Part shown: in pieces, positions 6,001 through 25,711 of the stretch | Numbering within the stretch: the first letter of the stretch is position 1 | How the letters are laid out: each line of letters starts with the position of its first letter | DNA from: a virus | Length of the DNA stretch: 30,507 nucleotides | Strand: one strand, 5' to 3' | IMG/VR virus record: IMGVR_UViG_3300023179_005305 | Span: 1-30,507 of that record | Translations under genes and position numbers: made by a program | The notes under the pieces: generated by a model | Told to the model about the DNA's origin: nothing | Databases searched by the model: none | The model's input: the letters and a program-made list of their open reading frames with translations, nothing else

Positions 6001-7533
6001 TATTCTTGGGGATATTCCTCTTCTTCGCATGGTCAATATGGTGAAGATTTTAGACATTTGCTTCCTGTTAAAACTTTAACAGCTTCTCCTGGAGTATTTG
6101 GAGCAACAGTTATACATCATAAATTCGTTAGTTTGGCTCAAGGTGATTATGTAAATGCAGGAATTACTGAAGAAGGTAGATTATTTACATGGGGTCATCA
6201 AGCTTATGGTGCTTTAGGTCTCGGCGATGCCGAAGATAGGTCTAGCCCTGTTCAAGTAGGTAGTTCTTCTTGGACGGCTGTTGCTACTGGAAGACATCAT
6301 GGTGCTGCAATAAGATCTGATGGTAAGTTGTTTACATGGGGATACAATGGTCATGGAGAATTAGGAGATACTACAACCATAGAAAAAAATTCACCAGTTC
6401 AAATAGGAAATTCTTCTTGGATTGCAGTTCATGCTTCCAGACATTCAACATCCGCTATCAGAGTAGATGGTGCGTTGTTTACATGGGGACAAAATAGTCA
6501 TGGTATTTTAGGTGATAATACTACTATCAGTAAATCTTCACCTGTTCAAATAGGTGGCTCTTCATGGACTTCTGTTAGTATGGGAGCTCACCATATGTTG
6601 GGTTTGATAACTTCGGTTGTTTCAAATTCTCTTTATGCATGGGGTCATAATTCTAATGGTAGTATTGGAGATGCTAGTACTACTGATAGATCTTCCCCAG
6701 TTTTGGTATCTACTAGACCAGGTATTTCATGGAGCTTAATTTCAGCAGGTTCTAATTATTCACTTGCAACAGATCAAAATGGGCGGTTGTGGGGATGGGG
6801 ACATTCTGGTCATGGGTGTTTGGGTCCAACAGTTACTCCTGGAAATAATAGAAGAACCCCGGAGAGATTATTTGTTTCAGGAACTTCTTTATATGATACT
6901 TCTTGGATTTCAATAGGCGCCGGATTACACACTCCTTATGTTATAAGAAGTGGGGATAGAGCCTTGTTTACATGGGGATACAATAATTATGGTACAATGG
7001 GAGATGGTTCAACATTATCCAAGTCAATTCCTGTTCAAATAGGGACATCTGCATGGAAAGCTGTAGGTAAAGGTGTTGGTCATTATTCTCTTGGCGCAAT
7101 TAAGTATGGTGTAGATCAATTCGCAGGAGGACAGTTATGTATGGCAGGACAAATAAATACTTCATATATAGGAAGACCTCCAGGCAATATGGTTCCAACA
7201 GAACAATGGACCATGAATGAAATGCATTCAAATTGGGCAGCAGTAGGATTCGGTCTACACCATGCAGCTGCTTTAACAGCAGACAATAGGCTTTATGTAT
7301 GGGGTCACAACAATCATGGACAAATAGGAGATGGTACTAATAGTTCCGGCTACGAGCAAAGTAATCCAAACTTTGCTTATTCATATGTTAGAGGTACGAT
7401 GACTGGAGGTCAAGATTATCTTCCCCAATATGTACCTAATTTTTGGCCTGGATCTCTTCCAGGTATCCCAGGTAGGTGGTCGGATTTTTCGTTAGGGTAT
7501 AGACATACATTGGCATTGACTGTGGATATATAG
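1..7533 (+). CDS. Giant RCC1-repeat protein (5'-truncated by the window)
   Basis: The reading frame is open from base 1 to the TAG at 7531-7533 and the first 31 codons already encode repeat sequence. The ATG at 94 has no Shine-Dalgarno, so it is internal and the true start lies upstream. I count about 46 repeat units averaging about 54 residues. Each has the RCC1 pattern: an LFAWGxN-like strand, GQLGDGTT, SSPVQIG, SSWTAVSAG, then HT-AIRS. A few units are degenerate (for example LYGWSH and LCMAGQ). RCC1 repeats fold as seven-bladed beta-propellers, so the visible part would give six or seven propellers. The last unit ends HTLALTVDI, a plausible closing strand. No signal peptide, membrane segment or enzyme motif is visible. 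It lies upstream of the neck genes and beside a glycan-modification cassette, so a virion surface or receptor-binding role is the best guess, but this is inference. The fold is sure, the function is not. Confidence 0.93.
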   Translation, partial: GIGDSTTIYRSTPVQIGYDSWTAIAAGNAYSMAVRLGGTLFTWGYNNQYQLGNGTTIQKSSPVQIGSSSWSVVSCGESHSAAISTSGTMYIWGNQSYGEGGTNPPSMLRPVKFLDSTGLDYDKRSWTAMSSGAEMCAAIDSLGRLFTWGYNSDGQLGFNDTINRSSPTQLGSSSWTAVSVGAHYTLAIRSDGSLFAWGRNNIGQLGDGTNINRSSPVQIGGSLWTAVQNVSIDNYDQPRNYAIRSGGTLFGWGYNNGHYLLGDGTTITRSSPVQIGSSSRSWKTIAGGSDFCLGISNSKLYGWSHTESEGSRNYAGDGFNNFNPISIEDAANSQYLEKSWTAISFWKTIISAGMDGTNISQRRGYAIDSTGKLWAWGQNNYGFLGDGTTIDRSSPVQIGAQNWNSVSAGGLHTLAIRSDGYLFAWGSNGHGQLGDGTTIDKSSPVQIGSSLWTSIDASIRRSFAIRSGGSLFAWGQNRYTAWQYIDYPGILGDGDTIDRSSPVQIGSSSWTAVKSGDQFTVAIRAGGTLFAWGHNSSGQLGDGTTIDKSSPVQIGSSSWTAISAGSHHTMAIRSGGTLFTWGHNGHGQLGDETTIDKSSPVQIGYDSWTVIAAGPATSYGNKIISAGQTRIYAWGYGDYPVLGLSSGWSAPGSISSSPREVISSWIKGLNMSGTTVMAAGPNVFGLIYNGNVGDTGQLLTIGHEPYGYVTGRGLWERFPKRISAFNDVNIITAGLHNANMIRSNGVMYSWGYNRHGQAGVNRPPQDYQEWSPVAQTGSWAAVSSARHTTYALDTSGELWVWGRNSMSCYWGCQWAGGLSLGSDSLSYYGEDVSSPTPINNSVYQKAYGTTYYSKLSNSEPNSGQLRMAINNQGELLTVTGTEYYGELGRISNPVIAPMKMGNASWTAVAAGKHHTVGVSNNKLFAWGYNAYGQIGEGSTYHRSYPNQLGNSSWTAVGAGGHHSHAIRSDGKLFGWGRNDYSQVGDYTTINKSSPVMIAGSSWTVVSGGSYNTVGIYAQKAVNWGYNSNGELGKVTNRSSPIQIGNKSWVAVQARKNRSAGISIENRLYTWGENTWGNNGYGSKDNLDSPVAVGGRDFLWKDKLGSLGGSHTAACSKTGTLYVWGSGGTHSGLGFPAWGAWTPAQIGSESWIAVSAGWTHAVAIRADGKLFAWGRQDDGYPRIGDGTTLNKSSPVQIGEDSWSKISANANRTNAIRSDGMLFGWGYNGHGELGDNTTINRSSPVQVGSSSWNAVSAGVHHTLLLARYNASQSTLYAMGNNGYGQLGDGTTIHKSSPVLVDSTGFWKSVSGGYHHTIGLKENNTLYGWGLSTSGEIGDGTTINKSSPVQIGSSSYNMISAGHHSNYARDSSIAFDKGILWAWGHNPYSIQGDGGYSNISSPVILGQGGAKTSTQAIPSIVGKVNEPGNKVKYWKQISSGQDHTLAIRSDNLLFAFGRNSLHLLGDGTTVDRQSPVQIGSSSWIAVAAGQYHSVAIRSDGMLFAWGEGKQRNNYQGATGEGENNKEPWTIKGSFPFETSWRSISVGQNFMLGIRSDGILYSWGHNGQGQLGNGTTIDSSSPVQIGSSSWIVAEAGDNFSLGIRSGGTLFAWGHNNHGQLGDSTTIAKSSPVQIGSSSWVAVKGSANFSIGIRAGGTLFTWGYNGHGQLGDNTTINKSSPVQIGSSSWTAVDAAIAGNFSLALRSGGTLFAWGHNSSGQLGDSTTIDKSSPVQIGSESWIIISAGHAGTAAIRNDYKLFTWGTNSHGQLGDSTTIAKSSPVQIGNSSWISVGAGHHHTLGVTSGGSLFSWGYNADSRLGDNTTISRSSPVQVGSFSWISVNAGGDASAGITSDNKINTWGNTGHGKLGRMPGNSVPTQISYRSFASIAAGRHHNLAIDTQGKLWAWGYGGSGNIGDGEYSNRSSLVQIGSSSWTILFKGGSTSYASFAIRSGGTLFAWGDNGSYTLGDNTTIAKPSPVQMGTSSWIAVGSGVSNVMAITSAGKLYSWGYSSSSHGQYGEDFRHLLPVKTLTASPGVFGATVIHHKFVSLAQGDYVNAGITEEGRLFTWGHQAYGALGLGDAEDRSSPVQVGSSSWTAVATGRHHGAAIRSDGKLFTWGYNGHGELGDTTTIEKNSPVQIGNSSWIAVHASRHSTSAIRVDGALFTWGQNSHGILGDNTTISKSSPVQIGGSSWTSVSMGAHHMLGLITSVVSNSLYAWGHNSNGSIGDASTTDRSSPVLVSTRPGISWSLISAGSNYSLATDQNGRLWGWGHSGHGCLGPTVTPGNNRRTPERLFVSGTSLYDTSWISIGAGLHTPYVIRSGDRALFTWGYNNYGTMGDGSTLSKSIPVQIGTSAWKAVGKGVGHYSLGAIKYGVDQFAGGQLCMAGQINTSYIGRPPGNMVPTEQWTMNEMHSNWAAVGFGLHHAAALTADNRLYVWGHNNHGQIGDGTNSSGYEQSNPNFAYSYVRGTMTGGQDYLPQYVPNFWPGSLPGIPGRWSDFSLGYRHTLALTVDI
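4836..4889 (+). repeat. 54-nt exact direct repeat, copy 1 (inside RCC1 gene)
   Basis: This stretch is identical base for base to 5283-5336. It covers the GQLGDSTTIAKSSPVQ part of one RCC1 unit, in the same reading frame. The identity includes synonymous positions, which suggests recent duplication or gene conversion rather than protein-level selection alone. Confidence 0.9.
5283..5336 (+). repeat. 54-nt exact direct repeat, copy 2 (inside RCC1 gene)
   Basis: Second copy of the 54-base direct repeat at 4836-4889, offset by 447 bases. Nearby units share shorter near-identical blocks, for example around 1286-1340, 1610-1664 and 1756-1810, which differ at only a few positions. Confidence 0.9.
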
Positions 7534-7538
7534 TATAG

Positions 7539-7563
7539 TATAATTATAATTATAATATTTTTT
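7539..7563 (+). terminator. AT-only palindrome followed by T tract (possible weak terminator)
   Basis: Positions 7539-7554 form a perfect 16-base palindrome made only of A and T, followed by a run of six T at 7558-7563. It is the only gap between the RCC1 gene and the modification cassette. An all-AT stem is weak, so termination would be partial at best. The same stretch contains TATAAT at 7551-7556 that could be a -10 box, but I see no convincing -35 box. Either role is tentative. Confidence 0.25.
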
Positions 7564-7578
7564 GAGGATTTCGGTTTT

Positions 7579-8628
7579 ATGCATAAAATTGATCAACAGC
7601 TTAATTTAATGATTCGTGGAAAATTTGAAGATGGTTGGAAGCTAAGCCAGATAATGCATGAGGAGCATCCAGATGATCTAAGACATCTGTTCAATAGAGG
7701 TTGGTTTTTAATAAATCAAGGAGATCTTCAGGGTGGTTTCCAATCTCTTGAATCGGGGAGATTGTTGGGAGTTTACGGTAGCGGTAGATTAAGGACTAAT
7801 AAACCAATTTGGAATCCTGAAGTCCATCCTATTGAGGGTAAAACTATTATATTAAATATGGAGTGTGGATTTGGTGACCAAATCATTTATGCTAGATTTG
7901 GATCTGAGATAGCTCAGAGAGGTGGTAAATGTATTATGTCCGCTGATGTAAGACTCCATTCATTATTTTCAAGGATTCCTGGTGTTGATAAATGTATAGT
8001 TCAAAAAGACATTCCCAATATAATTCATGATTATTGGATACCGTCTTTCAGTAGTTCATGGCTATTTGGGCACACGTTTGACACTATACCTAATAAACCC
8101 TACATTTTTTCAAATCCTGCAAGTGTAGAAGTTTGGAAAGGTTTAATTAACTCTGAAAAATTTAAAGTAGGTATAAGATGGTCAGGTAGTCCTCTTTTTG
8201 AACACCAACAGTTCAGAATATTTCCTCCTGAGCCCTTAATTGATTTGTGCAAATACAAAGATATTCAATTTTACAGTCTTCAAAGAGACACTGACACCAG
8301 AGAACTACCACCTGATATTATTGATTTACAGCATCTAATTATTTCTTGGGAGGATACAGCCGCCGCCATAGAAAATTTAGATTTAGTAATAACTTCTTGC
8401 ACAAGCGTTGCTCATTTATCCGCTGCTATGGGAAAGCCGACTTGGGTGATTGTACCTTTACTCCCATACCATATATGGGCATTTGGTAAAGGTGAGGATA
8501 TGGAGAATTCTCCATGGTATCCAGAAACTACCAGGGTGTTTAGACAAAAAGTTTTTGGTAATTGGGATTGCACGTTCGAAAAATTAGAAAAAGAATTAGT
8601 TAAACGATTTAATTTAAAAAAGGAATAA
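7579..8628 (+). CDS. TPR-GT-B glycosyltransferase-like protein (heptosyltransferase/OGT-like fold)
   Basis: This 349-residue protein begins with a short tetratricopeptide-like helical part (about residues 1-63), followed by a glycosyltransferase B-type domain. Diagnostic stretches are GFGDQI at 97-102 (nucleotide-fold loop typical of GT9 and related enzymes), GIRWSGSP at 198-205, and TSCTSVAHLSAAMGKPTW at 272-289, the donor-binding region. The tail SPWYPETTRVFRQ at 311-323 is typical of bacterial TPR-containing glycosyltransferases. The family usually has an acidic residue near the TSCTS site, whereas here it is serine/cysteine, so the donor site may be modified. A GAGG Shine-Dalgarno near 7563 supports the ATG. 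It is the first gene of the cassette. The likely role is transfer of a sugar to a protein or glycan in the infected cell. Donor and acceptor are unknown. Confidence 0.82.
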   Translation: MHKIDQQLNLMIRGKFEDGWKLSQIMHEEHPDDLRHLFNRGWFLINQGDLQGGFQSLESGRLLGVYGSGRLRTNKPIWNPEVHPIEGKTIILNMECGFGDQIIYARFGSEIAQRGGKCIMSADVRLHSLFSRIPGVDKCIVQKDIPNIIHDYWIPSFSSSWLFGHTFDTIPNKPYIFSNPASVEVWKGLINSEKFKVGIRWSGSPLFEHQQFRIFPPEPLIDLCKYKDIQFYSLQRDTDTRELPPDIIDLQHLIISWEDTAAAIENLDLVITSCTSVAHLSAAMGKPTWVIVPLLPYHIWAFGKGEDMENSPWYPETTRVFRQKVFGNWDCTFEKLEKELVKRFNLKKE

Positions 8629-8629
8629 A

Positions 8630-9424
8630 ATGAAAACAGTTCATTATGTAGCAGGTCTTCCAAGATCTGGAGCAACATTGATTCTTAACATTCTTAAACA
8701 AAACCCGCTCATTCATGGAGAATCAGTTAGTGGGTTATGTTCTGTCCTCTCAGGAGTTCATTTTAATTGGGATAAAATAGAACAAAATAAAGAGTACTTA
8801 AATCTTGAATCAAAAACTAATGTGCTTAAAGCTATTATAGAAAATTATCACAATCAACATCAGAAAGATATAATTTTTGATAAAGATAGGTTATGGGTTC
8901 AGCACATCAGTTTGTTGGAATATCTGTTCCAAAAACCAGTTAAGATGTTAGTTACAGTTAGGAATCCAGCAGAGGTACTAGCTTCTTTTGAGAAGATTAG
9001 AAAACACAACCCTCTTCATATTACTTTATCTGATGATGAGCTTAAAGAAAATACCTCTGTAGCAGCAAGGGCTTATTTTTTTGCTCAACCTACAGGTAAT
9101 ATGGGAGCTGCTTATCAAGCTCTTAAAGATTCAATCACAATGGGTTATTTGGATAGACTACTGTTTGTAGATTATAATAGATTTTGTAATAGTCCAAAAA
9201 GTCAACTTAAAAGAATATATGATTTTTTTGAGTTACCTTCTTTTGAACATGATTTAGACAATATTAGTCAAGTGGAAACCTATAACGATCAAGCAACTTT
9301 ACTTCCTAATCTTCATAAGATTAAACCAAGTCTTCAAAAAACTACAGTTAATGTTGTTGAATATTTAGGTTTAGATTTATATCAACAATATAATAGAGAA
9401 ATTTTCTGGGATGCTTGGATTTAA
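8630..9424 (+). CDS. Sulfotransferase family protein (PAPS-dependent)
   Basis: This 264-residue protein carries the two PAPS-binding signatures of sulfotransferases. The 5'-phosphosulfate loop is GLPRSGATLI at residues 9-18, near the N terminus as expected. The 3'-phosphate-binding segment is TVRNPAEVLASF at 109-120, with R111 and S119 in the usual places. The family transfers sulfate from PAPS to hydroxyl groups of sugars, proteins or small molecules. The acceptor cannot be read from sequence. AAGGA precedes the ATG, and the gap to the previous gene is one base. An APS-kinase-like gene at 12804 could supply PAPS. No signal peptide or membrane anchor is seen, so it should act in the cytoplasm, unlike Golgi sulfotransferases. 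A kinase is unlikely because the motif lacks GKS/T. Confidence 0.85.
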   Translation: MKTVHYVAGLPRSGATLILNILKQNPLIHGESVSGLCSVLSGVHFNWDKIEQNKEYLNLESKTNVLKAIIENYHNQHQKDIIFDKDRLWVQHISLLEYLFQKPVKMLVTVRNPAEVLASFEKIRKHNPLHITLSDDELKENTSVAARAYFFAQPTGNMGAAYQALKDSITMGYLDRLLFVDYNRFCNSPKSQLKRIYDFFELPSFEHDLDNISQVETYNDQATLLPNLHKIKPSLQKTTVNVVEYLGLDLYQQYNREIFWDAWI

Positions 9425-9430
9425 TTAATA

Positions 9431-10102
9431 ATGAATATCTTTAATATGTGTTCTATTCCTGTTTTTTCTATAGAATTATCAGGACATGAGAAAATAACTA
9501 AAAAAGAATATGATGTTTTAACTCAATTTAAAATGGAAAAAAGAGATAGTGAATTAAAACAAAGTACTATGCTTTCTGAATCCTCTTGTATTCTAGAAAA
9601 CGAAAATTTAAAAAATATTAAATTTACAAAGCAGAAATACATAGATTATTATCTCAAAAACATTCTTAAAATAAAGAACAATTTTTCTATGACTAGTTCA
9701 TGGTTAACTATGAATTATAATGGTTCTTCCCATGAACGTCATTCTCATGGAAATGTTATTTTAAGCAGTGTATTATATTTTTGTGAAGATCTAAAAGAAG
9801 ACGTAATGTCTAATTTTTATATTAGTCAGAACGCTTTGAAAGATGTATTTAAAACTTTCCAATTCACATACGATTTATCAGATTATAATGAGTATAATTC
9901 TCCTTCTCTTACGTTAGCTACTAAAACAAATTTTTTAGTAATATTTCCAGCTTGGATGCTTCATGGGTCTGAGCCAGCAGAAGGACCTTTCAAAAGATAT
10001 TGTATAGGTTCTAATTATTTTTTAAATGATCATGTTGGTTCGGGCTATCACTCACTTCAAATTAATTCAAAACTAAAAGACACTTCTTTACAAATGGGGT
10101 AA
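9431..10102 (+). CDS. Putative 2OG-Fe(II) oxygenase (TIGR02466/PF13759-like)
   Basis: This 223-residue protein resembles the phage and marine bacterial 2-oxoglutarate/Fe(II) oxygenases of the TIGR02466 type. The metal-site region is SSHERHSHGN at 99-108 (H104 and H106 are candidates), followed by the strand SSVLYF. The distal histidine is H178 in FPAWMLHGSEP, and R189 (KRYCIGSNYF) is the likely 2-oxoglutarate anchor. Such enzymes hydroxylate or otherwise oxidise a protein side chain, sugar or small molecule. The substrate here is unknown. It starts six bases after the sulfotransferase gene. It is one of three dioxygenase-like domains in the cassette, each from a different subfamily. Confidence 0.75.
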   Translation: MNIFNMCSIPVFSIELSGHEKITKKEYDVLTQFKMEKRDSELKQSTMLSESSCILENENLKNIKFTKQKYIDYYLKNILKIKNNFSMTSSWLTMNYNGSSHERHSHGNVILSSVLYFCEDLKEDVMSNFYISQNALKDVFKTFQFTYDLSDYNEYNSPSLTLATKTNFLVIFPAWMLHGSEPAEGPFKRYCIGSNYFLNDHVGSGYHSLQINSKLKDTSLQMG

Positions 10103-10105
10103 ATT

Positions 10106-10729
10106 ATGGATGAAATCATTGTTCCGGAACATAAAAAAATAAATTTAGGTTGCGGATTTAAAAAAATGTTAGATTATTGGAATGTAGATATTGAAAAGAA
10201 ATGCAATCCTGATCAACAATTAGACTTAGAAACTTTTCCATGGCCTTACACTGACAGTTATTTTACAAATATTTGTGCTGATAATATTCTAGAACATTTG
10301 GGTCAAGATCCTAAAGTATTTGCTAAGGTAATTCAAGAAATGTATAGGATAAGTGAGGATCAATGTGAATGGGATATTATATATCCTCACCATCGAAGTG
10401 ATCTATTTTACGATGATTTCACTCATGTAAGACCTCTCACTGCCAAAACATTTTTGATGTTTGATCAGAAAAGTAATTTTGAATCTGTAGCTAAGAAGGT
10501 AAGTGATAGTACATTTGGTTTTTACTATGGCGTTGATATTGAAATAGTTGAAGTAAAATATAATTTAACTGGTCTTTTTCAAGAACAAGTAAACAATGGT
10601 ATGATAGGAAGTAGGCAACTTGATTATAATTTAAATACTGTTAACAACGTTTGTGAGACTGTAATTTTAAAAGCCAAAGTTCACAAACCAGGAAGGTATA
10701 TTAATTGGTTCAATAGCGTCAATAAATGA
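10106..10729 (+). CDS. Class I SAM-dependent methyltransferase
   Basis: A small Rossmann methyltransferase of 207 residues. Motif I is INLGCGFK at 12-19, an acidic residue at the end of beta-2 (NVDIE, D28) should bind the SAM ribose, and NILEHL at 60-65 matches the post-motif region of the Methyltransf_11 type. PHHRSDLFYDDFTHVRP in the middle is typical of the cyanophage and marine versions. The target may be a sugar or a small acid, and the sequence does not show which. The ATG is three bases after the previous stop, and the gene overlaps the next by four bases (ATGA), which indicates translational coupling. Confidence 0.82.
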   Translation: MDEIIVPEHKKINLGCGFKKMLDYWNVDIEKKCNPDQQLDLETFPWPYTDSYFTNICADNILEHLGQDPKVFAKVIQEMYRISEDQCEWDIIYPHHRSDLFYDDFTHVRPLTAKTFLMFDQKSNFESVAKKVSDSTFGFYYGVDIEIVEVKYNLTGLFQEQVNNGMIGSRQLDYNLNTVNNVCETVILKAKVHKPGRYINWFNSVNK

Positions 10730-11481
10730 GTGATATAATTTTTACTTCTGATGTTTTTTACATAGAAGATAAGCCAAGAAAGAATGTTCTTGTAGAAACT
10801 GATCAGGGTATGATGATTGTGAATAGATTTGATTCAAATCATCATCAAGTCGGCCATAGTATATGGCTACTCGATCATGGAAATTGCAATACAGTAGAAG
10901 TAAATGATTGTTATCAAGTAATTAAACATATTGAAAATCCTATAATTTTTGATGTTGGAGCTAATATAGGCACTATTTCTATTTGGCTTTCTAAAATGTT
11001 TAAAACTGGTCATGTTTATAGTTTTGAGGCTCAGAGACAGATATTTTATCAGTTAGCAGGTAATATTTCCATTAATAACTTGTATAATATCGATGTTTTC
11101 AATTTAGCTGTGGGATCTGAAAACGGTTATATTAATGTCAAAGAACCTAATTATTTCATTAATAATGATTTTGGTATTTTTAGTTTAATTGAGGAAAAGT
11201 TACCTACCACTAATAAAAATTTAGTAGTTCCATTAATTACTCTTGACACATTTGTTAAAGAGTATGAAATACCTAAAGTTGATTTGTTGAAGATTGATGT
11301 AGAAGGGATGGATATTAATGTGTTAAAAGGTTCTATAAATATTTTAGAAAAATATCAACCTATAATTTATGTTGAGCATTTTGATAACATTACTTCAAAC
11401 TTAACTAATCTTAAAAACTTTTTATCTAATTTTAACTACAATTTTGAAACAAGAAAGAACAACTTATTATGTCTGAAATAA
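10726..11481 (+). CDS. FkbM-family SAM-dependent methyltransferase
   Basis: This 251-residue protein fits the FkbM (Methyltransf_21) family. SAM motif I is IFDVGANIGT at 74-83, the beta-2 acidic residue is in YSFEAQ at 98-103, and the family hallmark KIDVEGMD followed by VLKG lies near residues 189-200. FkbM enzymes methylate hydroxyl groups of sugars or polyketides. In polysaccharide gene clusters they commonly O-methylate glycans. The start overlaps the previous stop as ATGA, and the stop lies inside the next gene. It supports reading the cassette as glycan building and capping. Confidence 0.9.
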   Translation: MSDIIFTSDVFYIEDKPRKNVLVETDQGMMIVNRFDSNHHQVGHSIWLLDHGNCNTVEVNDCYQVIKHIENPIIFDVGANIGTISIWLSKMFKTGHVYSFEAQRQIFYQLAGNISINNLYNIDVFNLAVGSENGYINVKEPNYFINNDFGIFSLIEEKLPTTNKNLVVPLITLDTFVKEYEIPKVDLLKIDVEGMDINVLKGSINILEKYQPIIYVEHFDNITSNLTNLKNFLSNFNYNFETRKNNLLCLK

Positions 11482-12284
11482 ACTTTCATTACGCATATCA
11501 ACTTTGTGATGTTGCTAGCAGAGAAAACAAACCAAGAATTTGTGGAGACGATAGAACACTACTTTCTAAAAAAAGTGTTCAATCTTTTTTTGAAAGTCTC
11601 AAACAGTTTAAAGAAAATTATCCTGAAACTAAACATCATATATGTTTTTTTAACGATAGATCAACAAACGAATTAGTTGAATTCGTTGAGACGATTATAA
11701 AAAAATATCAAAATGATCAAATTATAATTAAGTTTCAAGATAACAATGAACCTGGTATTCTCAGTGGTATTAAGCAATGTTATATGTGGCTTCAACTACA
11801 TGGTAAAGATTTAGTTTATCAAGTTCAGGATGATTATTTATTTTACCCATCAGCGTTGACTGAAATGTATGAAGTTTTTCATCAAATGCAAAAAGAAATT
11901 AAATACGATGTAATAGTTAGTCCATTCAACGATTTTTGGTTGTGGTTAGCTATTTACAGGAATTCATGTACTCCCAGAACAGTGATAGTAGGTAAAAAAA
12001 GGTATTGGATTCAATACTATGATATGAGTTGTTCTTTTATGACGTCTCATGATCAGTTTTCCAAGCACTGGGATTTATATCACAGATTTTTTGAGTTACT
12101 TGAAAACAATGATCCTGATTTAGAGAGGAGTTCATTAAACTTTATGTTGACACAAAGAGGTGTTTTAGGATTGATACCTGTAAATAATCTTGCATATCAC
12201 ATGCAAACTGAACTGGAAGAAGATCCTCACATTGATTGGCGTCCGTTATGGGAGAGTATAGATGTCTCGCTCACAACAAATTAA
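11469..12284 (+). CDS. Putative GT-A-type glycosyltransferase
   Basis: A 271-residue protein with a nucleotide-sugar transferase look. An N-terminal alpha/beta part (HHICFFNDRST at about 56-66) is followed by VYQVQDDYLFYP at 116-127, where D121-D122 form a DxD-like metal-binding site. A second half is rich in Trp and Tyr. There is no signal peptide or transmembrane helix. It overlaps the FkbM gene by 13 bases and the next gene by 23. It resembles phage-borne GT2-like enzymes, but the family match is weaker than for the genes at 15656 and 17364, so sugar transfer is likely rather than certain. Confidence 0.65.
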   Translation: MSEINFHYAYQLCDVASRENKPRICGDDRTLLSKKSVQSFFESLKQFKENYPETKHHICFFNDRSTNELVEFVETIIKKYQNDQIIIKFQDNNEPGILSGIKQCYMWLQLHGKDLVYQVQDDYLFYPSALTEMYEVFHQMQKEIKYDVIVSPFNDFWLWLAIYRNSCTPRTVIVGKKRYWIQYYDMSCSFMTSHDQFSKHWDLYHRFFELLENNDPDLERSSLNFMLTQRGVLGLIPVNNLAYHMQTELEEDPHIDWRPLWESIDVSLTTN

Positions 12285-12804
12285 ATTTATACAAAACGTC
12301 AAAGATTCTTTTCCTGATTTTTTCACTAACAAAACAATACTAGAATTTGGTAGTCATGATTTCTTTGAAGTAGCTCCTACTAGAAGTTTTTTTCATCAAT
12401 GTGCTTATATTGGAGTTGATGTAGGTCCAGGAGAAGGGGTAGATATTCAGTGCATTGCTCATGAATATAACATGCCCGATGGGACATTCGATACAGTAAT
12501 CAGCAGAGAAATGTTTGAGCATGATCCTCATTGGGATAAATCATTTTTAAATATGGTCAGACTATGTAAACCAAAAGGATTAATATTTTTTACTTGTGCT
12601 ACAACTGGAAGAGTAAAACATGGTACTCTCTACAGTGATCCTCATGGAAGTACAAATACAGTAGATTTAGGATGGGAACATTATAAAAATCTGACGGAAA
12701 AAGATTTTAGAAGTATATTAGAATTTGATCAGGTTTTCGATTCTCATCAATTTTTAACAGACAGATTTTCATATGAGTTGTTTTTTTGGGGAATAAAAAA
12801 ATAA
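12262..12804 (+). CDS. Class I SAM-dependent methyltransferase (Methyltransf_11-like)
   Basis: A 180-residue compact methyltransferase. Motif I is the slightly unusual ILEFGSHD at 26-33, in which the normal GxGxG is reduced to one glycine. The ribose-binding acid is D53 in YIGVDVG. FDTVISREMFEHDP at 76-89 is the motif IV to post-motif region. The last visible strand is YELFFWGIKK. GGAGAG about ten bases upstream of the ATG provides a ribosome site inside the previous gene. The stop overlaps the next start by one base (TAATG). The substrate is unknown, and the neighbours point to a sugar or glycan intermediate. Confidence 0.8.
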   Translation: MSRSQQIKFIQNVKDSFPDFFTNKTILEFGSHDFFEVAPTRSFFHQCAYIGVDVGPGEGVDIQCIAHEYNMPDGTFDTVISREMFEHDPHWDKSFLNMVRLCKPKGLIFFTCATTGRVKHGTLYSDPHGSTNTVDLGWEHYKNLTEKDFRSILEFDQVFDSHQFLTDRFSYELFFWGIKK

Positions 12805-13643
12805 TGGAAAAGATCTTGATTATGGGTCTTCCTGGAGCAGGTAAGACATATTTTGCTGAGAGACTAAAGAAATACTTAGAAAATAATTCTAAACCTGATT
12901 TATCTAAAATTCATTCTGACTCACCTTTTCCTAATTTGCAGGCCAGAGTGGATTGGTTTAATGCTGATGATGTTAGGAGAAAGTTCAATGATTGGGACTT
13001 TTCTAAAGAAGGTAGAATCAGACAGAGTATAAGAATGTTTGATTTTGCTATGTCTTGCAAAGGTGATTATGTTATCTGTGATTTTGTAGCTCCTTTACCT
13101 GAAATGAGAAATAATTTTAAAGCAGATTGGACGATTTGGATTGATAGTATTGATCAAGGTAGATATGAGGATACAAACAAAATATTTGTTCCCCCTGAAA
13201 TTTATGATTTTAGGGTTACAGAACAAAATGCAGAATATTGGGTACCTGTTGTTGGATCCAGGATTTTATATAAACAAAGACGTCCAGTATTTAATTGGAA
13301 AAAAGAAACAGTTCAAATGCTTGGTAGGTGGCAACCATGGCATGCTGGTCACAGAGCTTTATTTGAAAGAGCTATTGAAAAGACCGGACAAGTTTGCATT
13401 ATGATAAGAGATTGCCAAGGTTGGAATGGATCTAATCCTTTTGAAATAGATAAAGTAAAATATTTTATTAGTAGAGATTTAGATCCTTTATTTCAAGGTC
13501 AATATATAATTCAAGTGGTACCTAATATTGTAAATGTTACTTACGGTAGAGATGTCGGATATAAAATAGAGCAAGAAGTTTTTGATGGTGAAATTCATTC
13601 CATATCTGCAACCAAGATAAGGAAACAAATGGGGCTAGAATAA
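12804..13643 (+). CDS. APS-kinase-like protein fused to HIGH-type nucleotidylyltransferase domain
   Basis: A 279-residue two-domain protein. The N-terminal half has a P-loop GLPGAGKT at 8-15, NADDVRRKF at 53-61 (compare DGDNVR of APS kinases), CDFVAPLPEMR at 92-102 (compare the FISP-R segment) and IDSI at 113-116. These together match the CysC/adenylylsulfate kinase layout, with an extra loop of about 25 residues before DDVR. The C-terminal half has GRWQPWHAGH at 174-183 and ISATKIR at 267-273, the two signatures of cytidylyl/NMN-adenylyltransferases of the HIGH superfamily. ATP sulfurylase also belongs to that superfamily, but its usual domain is far longer than these 110 residues. An in-frame TTG exists at 12786, but the ATG at 12804 overlaps the previous stop (TAATG) and places the P-loop at the normal distance, so I chose it. 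It probably makes PAPS or another activated intermediate for the cassette. Confidence 0.8.
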   Translation: MEKILIMGLPGAGKTYFAERLKKYLENNSKPDLSKIHSDSPFPNLQARVDWFNADDVRRKFNDWDFSKEGRIRQSIRMFDFAMSCKGDYVICDFVAPLPEMRNNFKADWTIWIDSIDQGRYEDTNKIFVPPEIYDFRVTEQNAEYWVPVVGSRILYKQRRPVFNWKKETVQMLGRWQPWHAGHRALFERAIEKTGQVCIMIRDCQGWNGSNPFEIDKVKYFISRDLDPLFQGQYIIQVVPNIVNVTYGRDVGYKIEQEVFDGEIHSISATKIRKQMGLE

Positions 13644-13644
13644 A

Positions 13645-14343
13645 TTGAAACCTTTTGATTACTGGGTGTTTGATGATTTTTTAGATATTGATTTGGCTAA
13701 AAAACTTTCTAGTGATTTTATCGATTATAATGATCCTAATTGGTTTTGCTACAATAATCCACTAGAGAATAAAAAAACTTTGAATAACTGGTATTTTTTT
13801 CCTCCATCTACTTACCAGTTTATGTCTTATTTAAATAGTCAACCATTTATAAGTTTTATATCTGAGGTAACCGGTACTGGGCAACTATACCCTGATATTG
13901 GATTACATGGTGCTGGATGGCATATTCATGGGAGAGGTGGAAAATTAAATGTTCATTTTGATTATTCCATACACCCAAAATTACATCTTCAAAGAAAACT
14001 AAACATTATAATTTACTTGACAGAAGATTGGAATCCAGAATGGGGTGGTAATTTGGAATTCTGGTCACATGATCCAATAACTAAAAGACCTAAAGATAAA
14101 GCGGAAGTCATAGATAATATTTTTAATCGTGCTGTGATATTTGACACCACTCAAAATTCGTGGCATGGTTTCCCTGATTCTTTAACGTGCCCGGATGGAA
14201 TTTACAGAAAAAGTATCGCAATGTATTATTTGACAAAACCTCCTGAAAACGTCGACAAAAGAAAAAGAGCTCTGTATTCTCCATCTAAACAACAATTGAA
14301 CGACCCTAAAATAGAAGAATTAATTATTCAGAGAGCAACATGA
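13645..14343 (+). CDS. Prolyl-4-hydroxylase-like 2OG-Fe(II) oxygenase, TTG start
   Basis: This 232-residue dioxygenase shows a complete metal and cosubstrate set: H104 and D106 in NVHFDYS, distal H174 in SWHGFPD, and R188 in YRKSIAMYYL. The flanking LNIIIYLTEDWNPEWGGNLEFW strand pair is typical of the P4H-like family, whose members hydroxylate proline or other protein side chains or nucleoside/sugar substrates. Homology begins within the first residues (KPFDYWVFDDFL), and no ATG lies between the previous stop and that sequence. TTG at 13645 is therefore the likely start, one base after the preceding stop, which suggests translation by coupling. It overlaps the next gene by ATGA. Confidence 0.87.
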   Translation: MKPFDYWVFDDFLDIDLAKKLSSDFIDYNDPNWFCYNNPLENKKTLNNWYFFPPSTYQFMSYLNSQPFISFISEVTGTGQLYPDIGLHGAGWHIHGRGGKLNVHFDYSIHPKLHLQRKLNIIIYLTEDWNPEWGGNLEFWSHDPITKRPKDKAEVIDNIFNRAVIFDTTQNSWHGFPDSLTCPDGIYRKSIAMYYLTKPPENVDKRKRALYSPSKQQLNDPKIEELIIQRAT

Positions 14344-15659
14344 GTCAAATATTAAATATTTTGGATAAGTTTGACATTAATGGTCACAATAAACCTGGTG
14401 GTACGGATAAAAACACCAACCATTCTTATGTTGAGGTATATGAAGAAGCGCTTGGTAGATTTATAGGAAAGCAAGGGTCTTTATTGGAGATCGGAATTCA
14501 ATATGGTGGATCTACACTTCTGTGGCAGGAACTACTGAAGGACTTTAAGATCTGTGCTGTTGATACCATAAATCAAGTTCATGATAAAATTCTTTCGTTG
14601 ATTGATCAACAAAGAGTTAGAATTAAATTTACTGATGCTTATCTTGAAGAAACATTTGAAAATATAAAAGTTTTATATCCTAATGGTTTTGATGTTATTA
14701 TAGATGATGGACCTCATAAGATAAAGTCTCAAATAAAATGTGTTGAGATGTACTCAGAATTATTAAAAGTTAACGGAGTTTTAATTATTGAAGATATTCA
14801 AAACTTTGATGACATAGATCTCATTATACAAAGTATTCCTAAGTCTGATTTGTATGAATATGATGTTAAAGTTTATGATTTAAGATCTAAAAAAGAAAGA
14901 TATGATGATGTTATTTTAATAATTACAAAAAAAGATAAAATTCCTGGAAATAATATTGCAGTGTTTTATCACCTTGGTCAATTTGGTCAATGGCAAAGAT
15001 TATTTCAAGAGCAAATGAATTCTTTGGTTATTAGTGGATTGTATAGCGCTGCAGATTTTATCTATATTGGGGTTAATGGAGAAGATCCTCTTCCTTTTAA
15101 TTTGCCTAAATTTAAAGTCAAATATAATAACAATAAAATATTAGAAGCAGACACTATCAAAGCTCTTTATGATTTTTGTAATGAAAATAAAGTTCACAGA
15201 GTGTTTTATTTTCACTCAAAAGGATCTACACAAGAAGATAAATCATTTAGGTTAAATGTAGAAGGATGGAGATTATACTTAGAGTATTTTAATATTCATC
15301 AATGGAGAGATTGTGTAGATCTTCTACAAGGCTACGATACGGTAGGAACAGAGTATAGTTTCGAAACCGGATTAGTAAATCAAGAAACAGGTAGCACTGA
15401 TTGGGAAACCAATCCTCATTATGCTGGTAATTATTGGTGGGCCAACTCTAGTTACATAAACAAACTAGATCCTAACTATCTTTACAGAACAGATAAAGGA
15501 TGGGATAGGTATAGAAGTGAATTTTGGATAGGTACTGGAGATCCAAAATATTATAACTTTTATCACACATCTATATTCAGTAAATATAAAGAATGGGGGG
15601 TTTCTCCTTTAGATTATCTAAAAAAAAACTTGATCGATTGGAATCGGGTAACAAAATGA
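14340..15659 (+). CDS. Methyltransferase-glycosyltransferase fusion
   Basis: A 439-residue two-domain protein. Residues 1-200 form a class I methyltransferase of the Methyltransf_24/MycE-like type: SLLEIGIQYGGST at 47-59, AVD at 73-75, FDVIIDDGPHK at 117-127 and VLIIEDIQ at 147-154. From about 204 (NIAVFYHLGQFGQW) a second domain begins, with FIYIGVNG at 240-247, VFYFHSKGS at 288-296, HYAGNYWWANSSYI at 360-373 and a C-terminal aromatic WIGTGD. This second domain occurs in phage and polysaccharide gene clusters and behaves like a GT-A-type glycosyltransferase, which I recall as a family look rather than a named enzyme. The start overlaps the previous stop by ATGA, and the 3' end overlaps the next gene the same way. 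The fusion suggests methylation and sugar transfer on the same glycan. Confidence 0.75.
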   Translation: MSQILNILDKFDINGHNKPGGTDKNTNHSYVEVYEEALGRFIGKQGSLLEIGIQYGGSTLLWQELLKDFKICAVDTINQVHDKILSLIDQQRVRIKFTDAYLEETFENIKVLYPNGFDVIIDDGPHKIKSQIKCVEMYSELLKVNGVLIIEDIQNFDDIDLIIQSIPKSDLYEYDVKVYDLRSKKERYDDVILIITKKDKIPGNNIAVFYHLGQFGQWQRLFQEQMNSLVISGLYSAADFIYIGVNGEDPLPFNLPKFKVKYNNNKILEADTIKALYDFCNENKVHRVFYFHSKGSTQEDKSFRLNVEGWRLYLEYFNIHQWRDCVDLLQGYDTVGTEYSFETGLVNQETGSTDWETNPHYAGNYWWANSSYINKLDPNYLYRTDKGWDRYRSEFWIGTGDPKYYNFYHTSIFSKYKEWGVSPLDYLKKNLIDWNRVTK

Positions 15660-17371
15660 TTAAAAATAAAAAAGCCAAATTTGTAATGATAACTATGTTT
15701 AAAAATGAGGCTACTACTATCAAAAGAATGTTAGAATCATGTTACAAATATATTGATTATTATGTAATTCAAGACAATGGTTCTACCGATGGAACTCCTG
15801 AAATAGTAGAAGATTTTTTTAAAGATAAAAATATTCCTGGATATATTTACAAGTGTGAAGAAGGTTGGGTTGGATTCGGATGGAATAGAGATCATTTACT
15901 TCAAAAATGTCAATCTACCGATCATGGGTGTGATTGGATTATAAAAATGGATTGCGATGAAACGTTGGAAATTGATAATGATTTTGATTGGGGTGTGTTT
16001 GATGATAAAAATTTACACGCTTTTCATGTCACTGCTATTCAAAGCGGAACTCTTTATCAAAGAGCATGGATATGGAATGCTAGATTAAAGTGGAAATTCA
16101 ATCATGATACTGCTCACGAAACTATTGAACTTGTAACAGAAAATATTGGAGCAAATTTTAGAAGATATAATCTTCCAAGATCTTTTAGGCATATTGGACA
16201 TTTTTCAGATGGTGAGAGTTGGAAAGTACCAACTAAGTATGTATCTGATGCTCTTAAACTTGAAGAAAAGTTAATTAGAGAAAATACAATGCTTTCAGAT
16301 TTGTATCATTTTTGGTACATTGGTAAAAGTTATTACGACGGATTTAGAGAAAAGGCTTTACCTCTTAAAGAAAGTCATAACAAAGAAATGGCAAGAAGAT
16401 GTATTTTCAATTTTACTGAATTTATTAATCATACTCATAATTTTAATCAAACCGGTAGAGCTGATAGGTTAGATGAGATGGCCTATTATGCAATGATGCT
16501 AATAGGAAATTGTTATAATTTCCTAGAAGAAAATGACCAAGCAATTTATTTTCTTGAAAAAGCTGAAGAATTTTGTCCTTTAAGAAACGAACATCTTGTA
16601 AACTTAGCAGCAATATATCAAAACATTCAGCAATACGATAAAATGCTTTCAGTTACAGAAAGATTAATAGATCAAAATAGAAAAAACCCCTTCCCTGATT
16701 TTAGTTTTATTATTGATGCTAATAGTTACTATGATACAGGTAACTATGTTTACTTACTCCACGAAGAAGCATTGAGTCATACAAGACCAACATCCATTTT
16801 TAAGGTTAATACCAACATGAAAAAAAGACTTTGGGTAGTAGATAACTTTTATCAAAATCCTGATGAAGTTAGAAAATTTGCTTTAGGTGTAGAGTATAAT
16901 GAAGATATTCAATGGTATAAAGGAATGAGATCCAAAGAGCAGTACCTTTTTAATGGTTTAAAAGAAGCACTAGAAAGTGTTATGGGTATTAAGTTAAAAC
17001 CTTTAGAAACACACGGTCAATGTGGAAGATTCCAAATATGTAGATCTCAAGAACAAATTGTATATCACAACGATTCCCAAAAATATGCTGCTATGGTATA
17101 TCTTACACCTGATGCTCCTGTAGAATCAGGTACTATGCTGTTAAGGTCAAAAATAACTGGAGCAAGGCATATTTCTGACCCTAATTTTGACGATTCTTTC
17201 AAAGGTGGTTTTTACGACAAGACAAAATTTGAAGTTGTGGATAATGTAGGAAACATTTATAATAGGTTGGTTATTATGGATTCTCATTGTATTCACGCTG
17301 CTTCTCAATACTTCGGCCAAAGTAAAGAAGACTCTAGACTAACTCACTTATTTTTCTTTGATAATGAATAA
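15656..17371 (+). CDS. GT2 glycosyltransferase-TPR-2OG oxygenase-like tri-domain protein
   Basis: A 571-residue protein with three parts. Residues 8-200 are a GT2-type transferase: ITMFKNEATTIKRMLES at 12-28, IQDNGSTDGTPEI at 38-50 and the DxD motif DCD at 99-101. Residues 210-345 are helical and TPR-like (AIYFLEKAEEFCP at 296-308). Residues 390-571 resemble DUF6445-type dioxygenases: LWVVDNFYQNPDEVRKFAL at 392-410, H471-N-D473 as the HxD pair, H544 or H547 as distal histidine, and R561 for 2-oxoglutarate. An in-frame ATG at 15593 would add 21 residues encoded inside the previous gene. The ATG at 15656 forms an ATGA overlap and starts right before the GT2 fold, so I prefer it. The fusion suggests one polypeptide that hydroxylates and glycosylates, or two steps of the same pathway. 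Substrates are unknown. Confidence 0.83.
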   Translation: MIKNKKAKFVMITMFKNEATTIKRMLESCYKYIDYYVIQDNGSTDGTPEIVEDFFKDKNIPGYIYKCEEGWVGFGWNRDHLLQKCQSTDHGCDWIIKMDCDETLEIDNDFDWGVFDDKNLHAFHVTAIQSGTLYQRAWIWNARLKWKFNHDTAHETIELVTENIGANFRRYNLPRSFRHIGHFSDGESWKVPTKYVSDALKLEEKLIRENTMLSDLYHFWYIGKSYYDGFREKALPLKESHNKEMARRCIFNFTEFINHTHNFNQTGRADRLDEMAYYAMMLIGNCYNFLEENDQAIYFLEKAEEFCPLRNEHLVNLAAIYQNIQQYDKMLSVTERLIDQNRKNPFPDFSFIIDANSYYDTGNYVYLLHEEALSHTRPTSIFKVNTNMKKRLWVVDNFYQNPDEVRKFALGVEYNEDIQWYKGMRSKEQYLFNGLKEALESVMGIKLKPLETHGQCGRFQICRSQEQIVYHNDSQKYAAMVYLTPDAPVESGTMLLRSKITGARHISDPNFDDSFKGGFYDKTKFEVVDNVGNIYNRLVIMDSHCIHAASQYFGQSKEDSRLTHLFFFDNE

Positions 17372-18629
17372 TTACAAATTTAGCATTATTACACCTACCC
17401 ATAGTGTAAAGAATATACCATTTCTTTTAGAGTTATATCATAGTATTAAATCTCAAACTTACTCCAACTGGGAATGGGTATTGTATCTAAATGGAAAAAT
17501 ATTAACTTCTGATCTACCTAATGAAATTTCTTATGATCCTAAAGTTATTGTCTACGAATATAGAGGAGATAATACCAATGTAGGTTATATGAAGAACTTA
17601 GCTTTTAATGCTGGAGAAGGTGATATTTTAGTTGAAGCTGATCACGATGATTTGCTAACAGAAAATTGTTTAGAAAAATTAAATATTGCTTTTCAAGATC
17701 AGCAATATGGATTTGTGTATAGTGATAACGCAACTTATCACATGGAAGATAAATTTACTCCTTATGGTACTCCATGGGGATGGACTCATAGGATGTACCA
17801 ACACAAAGATAAACTATTGTTTGCTATGAATAGTTTTGAGCCTTCTAGTCATTCAGTTGGTTATATTTGGTATGCTCCAGATCACGTAAGGTCTTGGAGA
17901 TCATCTGTATATAAAGATATAGGAGGACATAACCCCGAACTTTCAATTTGTGATGATCACGAGTTGATGATAAGAACTTATTTAAAAACAAAATTTAAAA
18001 GAATACCTGAAGTACTTTATATTTACAGAGTTACTGGAGATAATACTTGGCTAGAAAGAAACAAAGCTATACAAACAACTACAGTAGAATTGTTTAATCA
18101 ATATGCTCAACAATTAGCTGAAAAGGATGCTGATGACAATAAGTTGTTAAAGGTTGATTTGGGTGGAGGAATGAACGCTAGACAAGGTTATCTTACAATA
18201 GATCAAGCAGACGCCAACATTAACTGTGATCTTAACGAAGGTATTCCTTTGCCTGATAATAGTGTAGGTGTAATTAATGCTAGCCATGTAATTGAACATC
18301 TTCATGATAAAACTAAGACTATGAAAGAAATTCACCGTGTACTTGCACACGGTGGTTGGGCGTTTATTGAGGTACCTAGTACAGATGGTAGAGGAGCTTT
18401 TCAGGATCCCACTCATGTTAGTTACTGGAATGAAAACAGTTTCTTATATTATACTAATTCTTATCTTGCCAATTTTATTAGAAATAAAGACATTAGATTT
18501 CAAGAATTTAGAAGAGAGACTTGGTTTCCAAATGAATGGATGAAAAATATGAATGTTTGTGTGACAACTTGGTGGGGAGTTGCAAATAAACCAGAAGGAA
18601 GAAGACTACCTCACAGACTGGAAATTTAA
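17364..18629 (+). CDS. GT2 glycosyltransferase-methyltransferase fusion
   Basis: A 421-residue protein. The N-terminal half is a classic GT2 domain: FSIITPTHSVKNIPFLLELY at 6-25, GYMKNLAFNAGEGDILVEAD at 74-93, metal site DHDD at 93-96, and CDDHELMIR at 196-204. From about 260 a class I methyltransferase follows: LLKVDLGGGMN at 261-271, ID at 279-280, LPDNSVGVINASHVIEHL at 296-313 and a late GGWAFIEVPS strand. An upstream TTG at 17358 is in frame, but the ATG at 17364 overlaps the previous stop region by eight bases and fits the fold. It is the last gene of the cassette. The domain order is the mirror image of the fusion at 14340. The likely role is to add a sugar and methylate it or a neighbouring sugar. 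Confidence 0.87.
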   Translation: MNNYKFSIITPTHSVKNIPFLLELYHSIKSQTYSNWEWVLYLNGKILTSDLPNEISYDPKVIVYEYRGDNTNVGYMKNLAFNAGEGDILVEADHDDLLTENCLEKLNIAFQDQQYGFVYSDNATYHMEDKFTPYGTPWGWTHRMYQHKDKLLFAMNSFEPSSHSVGYIWYAPDHVRSWRSSVYKDIGGHNPELSICDDHELMIRTYLKTKFKRIPEVLYIYRVTGDNTWLERNKAIQTTTVELFNQYAQQLAEKDADDNKLLKVDLGGGMNARQGYLTIDQADANINCDLNEGIPLPDNSVGVINASHVIEHLHDKTKTMKEIHRVLAHGGWAFIEVPSTDGRGAFQDPTHVSYWNENSFLYYTNSYLANFIRNKDIRFQEFRRETWFPNEWMKNMNVCVTTWWGVANKPEGRRLPHRLEI

Positions 18630-18635
18630 TCCATG

Positions 18636-18664
18636 AATCTCCTAAATAGTATAAACAGGAGATT
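18636..18664 (+). promoter_or_regulatory. RBS-sequestering hairpin in gene 13 leader
   Basis: AATCTCCT (18636-18643) is the exact reverse complement of AGGAGATT (18657-18664), with a 13-base loop. The right arm contains the AGGAGA Shine-Dalgarno of gene 13, four bases before its ATG. A transcript reading through from the modification cassette would hide the ribosome site. A transcript begun at the promoter motif at 18642-18648 would lack the left arm. Confidence 0.6.
18642..18648 (+). promoter_or_regulatory. Candidate late promoter (CTAAATA) for gene 13
   Basis: CTAAATA is close to the T4-type late -10 motif TATAAATA and resembles the variant used by marine T4-like phages. It lies 18 bases before the gene 13 ATG, inside the hairpin loop. 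An overlapping TATAAACA at 18650-18657 is a weaker alternative because it would start RNA inside or after the ribosome site. Confidence 0.45.
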
Positions 18665-18666
18665 CT

Positions 18667-19410
18667 ATGACTATTCCAACAACAAGAGCTGAATTTAAAG
18701 AATATTGCTTACGTAAGCTAGGTAAACCTGTTATTGAAATTAACGTTGAAGATGATCAAATAGATGATAGGGTAGACGAATCTTTAAAATATTACTATGA
18801 TTACCATTTCGATGGTTCAGAAAAAATATATTATAAGCATGAAATAACTGCTAATACAAAAATAGACAAATACATCACATTGCCAGAAAACATTATAGGT
18901 GCTATAAGAGTTTTTCAGATAGGTGATCCTTCTGTACGATCAAGTGATATGTTTAATATTAGATATCAAATAGCTTTAAATGATCTTTATCAAATGACTA
19001 CAGTTTCTCTAGTTCCATATTATATGGCAATGCAACATTTAGGAACTATTACTGAATTATTAGTTGGACAACAACCCATAAGATACAATAGGCATACTAA
19101 TAAATGCTATATTGATATGGATTGGACAAAAATTGATGTAAATGAATTTTTATTAATAGAAGCTTATCAAGTTATTGATCCTGCAACCTACACAGATGCA
19201 TGGAGTGACAGGTGGCTTCAACACTACTGTACAGCCAAAATTAAATATCAATGGGGAACAAACCTTACCAAATTTACAGGAATGCAGCTTCCAGGTGGAG
19301 TTCAATTTAATGGAGAAAAAATATTAGATGATGCAAAGGCGGAAATTGATAAGTTAGAACAAGAAATGATTAGTAGTTACTCGTTACCAGTAATGGATAT
19401 GATTGGATGA
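18667..19410 (+). CDS. gp13: Neck protein gp13 (T4-like)
   Basis: This 247-residue protein is a T4-type gp13 neck protein, recognised from its opening TIPTTRAEFKEYCLRKLGKP, the VDESLKYYYDYHFDG segment around 35-50, the DMFNIRYQIALNDLY region near 95-110, and the conserved C-terminal SDRWLQHYCTAKIKYQWG and ILDDAKAEIDKLEQE. It is shorter than T4 gp13 (309 residues), as in marine relatives. gp13 and gp14 form the neck that closes the DNA-filled head and joins it to the tail. It starts the morphogenesis block and is followed three bases later by gene 14. Confidence 0.93.
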   Translation: MTIPTTRAEFKEYCLRKLGKPVIEINVEDDQIDDRVDESLKYYYDYHFDGSEKIYYKHEITANTKIDKYITLPENIIGAIRVFQIGDPSVRSSDMFNIRYQIALNDLYQMTTVSLVPYYMAMQHLGTITELLVGQQPIRYNRHTNKCYIDMDWTKIDVNEFLLIEAYQVIDPATYTDAWSDRWLQHYCTAKIKYQWGTNLTKFTGMQLPGGVQFNGEKILDDAKAEIDKLEQEMISSYSLPVMDMIG

Positions 19411-25116: not shown

Positions 25117-25671
25117 ATGGCTTTTAATGTAAACGAAATCAGAAGTCAATTAACTTTTGGAGGAGCAAGACAATCTCTCTTCCAAGTCCAGTTTACTAAT
25201 CCTGCAAATAGTGTAGCTGATTTAAAACTTCCTTTTTTATGCAAGGCATCGCAAATCCCAGCATCAACCATAGGGTTGATTGAAGTTCCTTACTTTGGTC
25301 GAAAAGTAAGGCTAGCTGGTGATAGAGTGTTTGCTGATTGGTCAGTTACTGTAATCAATGACGAAGATTTCTTAATTAGAAATGCTTTAGAAGAATGGTC
25401 GTCTAATATTAATTCTCATCAGGGTAATTTGAGAGGATTTGGAGCAGCAAGTCCACTTCTGTATAAATCTACAGCAGAAGTAACACAGTTTTCAAAGACT
25501 GGTGCAGTTATCAGAGTATATAAGTTTAATGGAATATTTCCAACAGAGATTTCTCCTATTGAAATGTCTTGGGAATCTGTTGATGCTATAGAAGAGTTTA
25601 ATGTTACTTTCCAATATGATTGGTGGGAAGTTTCTGGTGGTATTACTGGTCAAGCTGGTACTACTACTTAA
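25117..25671 (+). CDS. gp19: Tail tube protein gp19
   Basis: A 184-residue tail tube protein (T4 gp19 is 163). It begins AFNVNEIRSQLTFGGARQSL, followed by FQVQFTNP, LPFLCKASQIPASTIGLIEVPYFGRKVRLAGDR-type sequence (only the pattern is quoted: IPAST-IEVPYFGR-VRLAGDR) and ends with the FNVTFQYDWWEV strand. These features are typical of the T4-like gp19/Hcp-like tube fold. It polymerises inside the gp18 sheath to form the channel for DNA. It has a strong Shine-Dalgarno (AAAGGAGA), in keeping with an abundant protein. Confidence 0.96.
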   Translation: MAFNVNEIRSQLTFGGARQSLFQVQFTNPANSVADLKLPFLCKASQIPASTIGLIEVPYFGRKVRLAGDRVFADWSVTVINDEDFLIRNALEEWSSNINSHQGNLRGFGAASPLLYKSTAEVTQFSKTGAVIRVYKFNGIFPTEISPIEMSWESVDAIEEFNVTFQYDWWEVSGGITGQAGTTT

Positions 25672-25683
25672 TTTGAATATTGA

Positions 25684-25711
25684 ATATGGAGGAGTGAAAG
25701 CTCCTCCATAT
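25684..25711 (+). promoter_or_regulatory. GNRA-capped stem-loop between genes 19 and 20
   Basis: An 11-bp perfect stem pairs 25684-25694 with 25701-25711. The six-base loop region TGAAAG can close as a U-G pair over a GAAA tetraloop. No T run follows, so it is not a classic rho-independent terminator. A role in RNA stability, processing or attenuation between the highly expressed tube gene and the less abundant portal is likely. Confidence 0.6.

Follow-up and report, generated by a model that had tools for sequence, protein, structure and literature searches.

A hairpin holding a late-promoter motif over the Shine-Dalgarno sequence of gene 13: a candidate start-dependent translational lock in uncultured T4-like phages

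The window, that is, the entire 30,507-nt stretch of viral DNA analysed herein, carries a gene for a gp13-like neck protein just downstream of a long modification cassette on the same strand (Table 1). The last cassette gene (17358-18629) stops 5 bases short of a perfect 9-bp stem with a 13-nt loop (AAATAGTATAAAC), and the Shine-Dalgarno (SD) sequence of gp13, contained in the 3' arm, lies 5 nt upstream of the ATG at 18667. The first-pass annotation, made from the sequence alone, had described perfect 8-bp arms; these were found as AATCTCCT (18636-18643) and AGGAGATT (18657-18664), and the pair G18635-C18665 extends them to 9 bp. It had also described the arms as enclosing CTAAATA, of which there is a single plus-strand copy in the whole window. 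This holds for AAATA, which opens the loop, whereas the 5' arm ends with the C and T (18642-18643). At the other end of the cassette, a sigma-70-like promoter lies in the 45-bp gap ahead of the first gene, and the relatives of the window in its own gp13 clade (clade A) showed weaker sigma-70-like matches in the corresponding gap. No positioned late promoter was found inside the cassette, and a terminator scan gave no convincing terminator between the cassette and gp13. Upstream of the cassette, where a tail-fibre gene is expected, positions 94-7533 encode a 2479-aa protein consisting largely of RCC1-like repeats (phrog_4219, E 3.5e-169).

Table 1. Features of the gp13 locus in the window, and further gp13 clades with strong hairpins.
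Feature	Position	Strand	Remarks
Sigma-70-like promoter TTGACT-17-TATAAT	7516..7544	+	11/12 match, best in scanned region; such matches are common by chance in the AT-rich window region
Modification cassette (sulfotransferase, 2OG-Fe(II) oxygenases, FkbM and other methyltransferases, glycosyltransferases)	7579..18629	+	Pfam, PHROG matches
5' (anti-SD) arm GAATCTCCT	18635..18643	+	9-bp perfect stem; compensatory changes in clade
Late-promoter core CTAAATA, overlapping 5'-arm end	18642..18648	+	
Predicted late-RNA start (6th base past last A of TAAATA)	18654	+	T4 spacing
3' arm AGGAGATTC, containing SD AGGAG (18657-18661)	18657..18665	+	
gp13-like neck protein (head-tail adaptor Ad2), 247 aa	18667..19410	+	phrog_211, E 2.7e-43
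gp13 hairpin clade L139/L149/L085			stem 12-14 bp
gp13 hairpin clade L348/L351/L355/L360/L373			TCCTTATATA type
gp13 hairpin clade L353/L354/L357/L359/L371			CCCGAAAAC type
Further strong gp13 hairpins of differing outer sequence			L356/L367; L364; L381; L019

The T4 late promoter TATAAATA, the form found at T4 gene e as against CTAAATA in the window, spans approximately -13 to -6. This placement is consistent with PMC2988020, in which the Aeh1 late consensus carries (a/g)C at -13/-12. Late RNA starting at the predicted position would begin with AACAGGAGATTCTATG, retaining the SD and losing the 5' arm. RNA reading through from the cassette was predicted to fold at -13.2 kcal/mol (z -3.6; 1 of 200 shuffles equally good), and RNA from 18654 showed essentially no fold. 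Opening of the gp13 SD was calculated to cost 9.6 kcal/mol in the read-through RNA versus 1.9 in the late RNA, and the same calculation gave 11.9 versus 0.6-2.1 kcal/mol for T4 gene e and 11.4 versus 0.3 kcal/mol for T4 I-TevII; the measure missed T4 soc (1.7), whose SD the predicted fold places in a loop. The earlier proposal that read-through RNA folds and blocks gp13 translation is thereby supported as to the predicted fold, the block being what we infer from it. As in locks of the T4 e/I-TevI type, prediction and covariation place the SD within a stable helix of the long RNA, and the sequence geometry, with the start set by T4 spacing, leaves the late RNA without the 5' arm.

Clade A (support 97) comprises seven members, namely the window, L004, L005, L006, L084, L102 and L115, and the SD stem is present in all of them, with 97% of the cells in the clade alignment paired and the arms still pairing across loops of 11-16 nt. 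Three different pairs were changed on both sides, G-C standing for A-U in the window, L005 and L006; none of 500 shuffles reached three double changes, and slid registers gave at most one. A lack of compensatory changes in relatives had been named beforehand as grounds for rejecting the proposed lock; the three double changes in this clade, together with at least two more elsewhere, show the reverse. A gp55-like late sigma was detected on two of four clade-A fragments (G002 and G003; E 5e-62 and 7e-62), and each of the seven records searched outside the clade encodes one, the window itself being a 30.5-kb fragment.

When IMG/VR was scanned with the pattern TCTCCTAAATA-N6-14-AGGAGA, the matches clustered immediately upstream of gp13 in divergent T4-like phages, and gp13 loci were then retrieved by protein, giving 241 unique leaders. 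The position of TAAATA is shared by most gp13 leaders, and several gp13 clades share the layout of the window with different stems (TCTCCTTATATA.., CTCCCGAAAAC.. and GCAGTCCTT..; Table 1), the arms being 7-21 nt apart. Compensatory changes were also found in these clades, from A-U to G-C in L351 and from C-G to U-A between L356 and L367, and in L351 and L353 a C-G pair became a U-G wobble with pairing kept. On the tree, hairpins of at least 8 bp require at least five changes (gains or losses), three of which are forced by well-supported branches. Among 32 gp13 leaders in which a search of the whole 70-nt leader gave a stem of 8 bp or more, the predicted start fell between the arms in 31; the exception was L348, with a predicted start 4 nt into the 3' arm. 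That late RNA would lack the left arm, as first suggested for the window, is predicted for every strong gp13 hairpin, as each start lies either in the stretch separating the two arms or at the border of the 3' arm.

Of the gp13 relatives that have a late promoter, most are without a strong hairpin, and among cultured phages the arrangement was absent from DLP_6, phiM12, Cr30, Melnitz, RHph_I1_18, Mosig, HTVC008M, several cyanophages and T4; gp13 of Cr30 has a 7-bp SD stem without TAAATA. The upstream gene lay on the opposite strand in 0 of 48 hairpin leaders versus 14 of 129 promoter-only leaders, a contrast that is suggestive and phylogenetically clustered. At L623:3230-3320, a homologue of the last cassette gene precedes gp13 of another lineage; the leader there can pair CCTAATA with TATTGGG right after TAAATA in one fold, at an opening cost of only 2.9 kcal/mol.

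To assess how specific the stem is to gp13, a dinucleotide shuffle of the 70-nt leader was considered as a null and rejected as too permissive because it preserves CTCC, and arm swaps, other-gene controls and opening energies were therefore used. Perfect SD stems of 8 bp or more were present in 24 of 159 gp13 leaders from the loci retrieved by protein, versus 3.3 under the arm-swap null, and in none of 86 other late-promoter genes of the same loci; the gp13 sample is enriched for hairpins in that the pattern scan had supplied four of the five query proteins. Upstream sequence added at least 8 kcal/mol of opening energy in 26 of 169 gp13 leaders (0.9 expected). Seven contigs of clades A-D hold 46 late-promoter genes, and the stem was confined to the seven gp13 genes among them, a contrast within contigs that the enrichment leaves unaffected; over eleven contigs the two stems outside gp13 belonged to a GIY-YIG homing endonuclease gene (L594; phrog_314) and a 240-aa gene (L604). 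Genes without a late promoter had such a stem in 1 of 627 cases. Homologues of the upstream cassette gene that precede genes other than gp13 have no hairpin behind them, and the hairpin thus belongs to the gp13 leader. GIY-YIG and HNH genes on related contigs display the promoter-in-hairpin layout as well, and since homing endonucleases are known for such control in T4-like phages (PMC2988022), they serve as a positive control. As judged from these contigs, outside gp13 the stem appears to mark mostly homing endonucleases, the T4 precedent.

Several such genes were noted individually. GIY-YIG genes with SD hairpins, several of them directly downstream of gp13, were found at L594:3043-3615 (minus strand), L454:3703, L440:3872 and L078:5792, with the 5' arm lying within TAAATACTCC, the spacer from promoter to start. 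A 136-aa HNH-like gene on the minus strand of L568, with CCTAAATACATTTAGG around its promoter, and the 240-aa gene at L604:16189-16911, with CTCTCTA/TAGAGAG around TAAATA, look similarly locked.

Whether a repeat of this kind could have arisen by chance was judged against the window itself, which contains 13 perfect inverted repeats whose arms are 9 bp or longer and whose loops do not exceed 20 nt, six of them with at least three G-C pairs versus 1.25 expected. Repeats of this size are hence not rare there, and the bare inverted repeat, being too common and only mildly unusual, was discarded as proof. It is unremarkable per se and unusual by position; when the sequence left of TAAATA was shuffled, an equally long SD stem arose in 1 of 2000 trials. 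On comparison of the clade sequences, conservation and compensatory changes settle the reality of the hairpin, and with the recurrence and fixed geometry in several clades they leave chance a negligible probability, refuting it for practical purposes. It is also improbable that the complementarity is a by-product, without regulation, of an extended late-promoter motif, CTCCTAAATA, beside a purine-rich SD. This motif is near-invariant ahead of the tail-tube genes in other phages, with pairing that reaches only 4-7 bp, and CTCC beside TAAATA may in part be promoter context. Against this explanation, the other late promoters on the clade-A contigs lack CTCC, the outer pairs covary, and clades C1-C3 and F have no CTCC directly before TAAATA and still form stems of at least 9 bp.

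The overlap of the repeat with the promoter, and the autoregulation of I-TevI at its own promoter (PMC2988022), would also suit a DNA operator for a late-promoter repressor. A palindromic operator would be expected to conserve its half-site and spacing; here the half-sites vary among clades while SD complementarity is retained, the arm spacing varies as well, and the tolerated G-U wobbles suit RNA, so that an operator is slightly less probable still than a promoter by-product. The least improbable of the alternatives, itself unlikely, is an intrinsic terminator or attenuator ending the cassette transcripts, in which the overlap of promoter and SD would save space. A T run does occur within or behind the 3' arm of some relatives (L084, GGAGATTTTTATG; L139, GGAGATTTTTTCAT; L356/L367, GGAGATTTTTTTATG), and a double role as terminator and lock is possible in the clades concerned. 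The sequence after the window stem, TATGACTATTCC, offers no T run 3' of 18665, which excludes a terminator role there; clades C1, C3, D and E likewise have none. Moreover, the G+C-rich stem, short loop and T run of an intrinsic terminator were not found together, loops being often 9-21 nt; the terminator scan returned nothing at the window stem, the same upstream gene in other settings has no hairpin downstream, and the SD invariably forms the 3' arm.

The leader is best compared with that of T4 gene e, in which the SD likewise lies in the 3' arm and the promoter in the 5' arm and loop, so that late RNA is without the 5' arm (PMC3014915), and the SD opening energies are similar. The two differ in that gene e is a lysis gene whose control was shown experimentally, whereas gp13 is a core virion gene, studied here through the sequences of uncultured phages. 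The same promoter-in-hairpin layout is known from I-TevI, I-TevII, I-TevIII, segB and Aeh1 mobE (PMC2988022), where the hairpins restrain mobile nucleases in introns or insertions; gp13, in contrast, is structural and heads the neck/terminase row. T4 itself has a hairpin just upstream of gene 13, at the wac-13 junction; it is, however, G+C-rich (GGGGCC-GCAA-GGCCCC) and terminator-like in form, with a free SD and no TAAATA in the loop. In the reviews consulted, the hairpin locks described for T4 are mainly those of lysozyme, soc, gene 49 and homing endonucleases, and the precedents invoked at the outset, e and soc, were correctly cited, gene 49 and I-TevI being further ones (PMC3014915). No report of a gp13 hairpin was found in the open-licence papers searched.

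All these comparisons indicate that the leader probably acts as a start-dependent translational lock on gp13, as in T4 gene e and I-TevI, and the lock model of the first-pass annotation is, overall, well supported. RNA transcribed early from the cassette and reading through into gp13 would carry both arms, fold and hide the gp13 SD. Late polymerase of the gp55 type would start from CTAAATA, giving RNA that begins at about 18654, past the 5' arm, and on this RNA the SD would be free, such that gp13, which leads the 13-14-15-16-17 row, would be translated only late. A block on early read-through may not extend to every clade: in several clade-B members the gene ahead of gp13 carries a late promoter itself, and the upstream genes of clades C-E need not be early ones.

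The mechanism is already known; what appears to be new, on the comparisons made here, is its location at gp13, its compensatory upkeep and its recurrence in multiple clades. The putative lock lies on a core morphogenesis gene, is upheld through compensatory change and reappears in several distant clades. This suggests that premature translation of the neck protein is costly, or that insulation against upstream cassettes is needed. That gp13 is a preferred site at which locks evolve repeatedly whenever cassettes land upstream is conceivable, though we regard it as rather doubtful; one hairpin would then, through coupled translation, silence the whole row until late transcription, and the lock would be a recurring means of timing virion assembly instead of a one-off protection against harmful genes. 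A simple search for TAAATA flanked by an anti-SD arm and an SD arm offers a way of finding late-locked genes in uncultured phages, and it also picks up homing endonucleases.

Tail-tube genes, raised by the pattern scan as a second locked family, were rejected, since the unconditioned set pairs over only 4-7 bp and follows a strong terminator. In L485-L564, these genes come after a strong terminator and then a near-invariant GGCTCCTAAATA late promoter with a GGAG SD; CTCC is complementary to the SD, and the pairing ends at 4-7 bp. In the leader at window position 25117, as in L570, L594 and L610, the sheath gene has TTCTCC in its conserved 3' end, and this is able to base-pair, over the late promoter, with GGAGAA of the tail-tube SD; conserved coding may account for it. 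Just before the portal gene (25723), an 11-bp perfect hairpin with a loop of 6 nt (ATATGGAGGAG/CTCCTCCATAT; 25684-25711) constitutes the strongest G+C-containing repeat in the window, and the SD region of the portal gene (TATGGAG) repeats part of its left arm.
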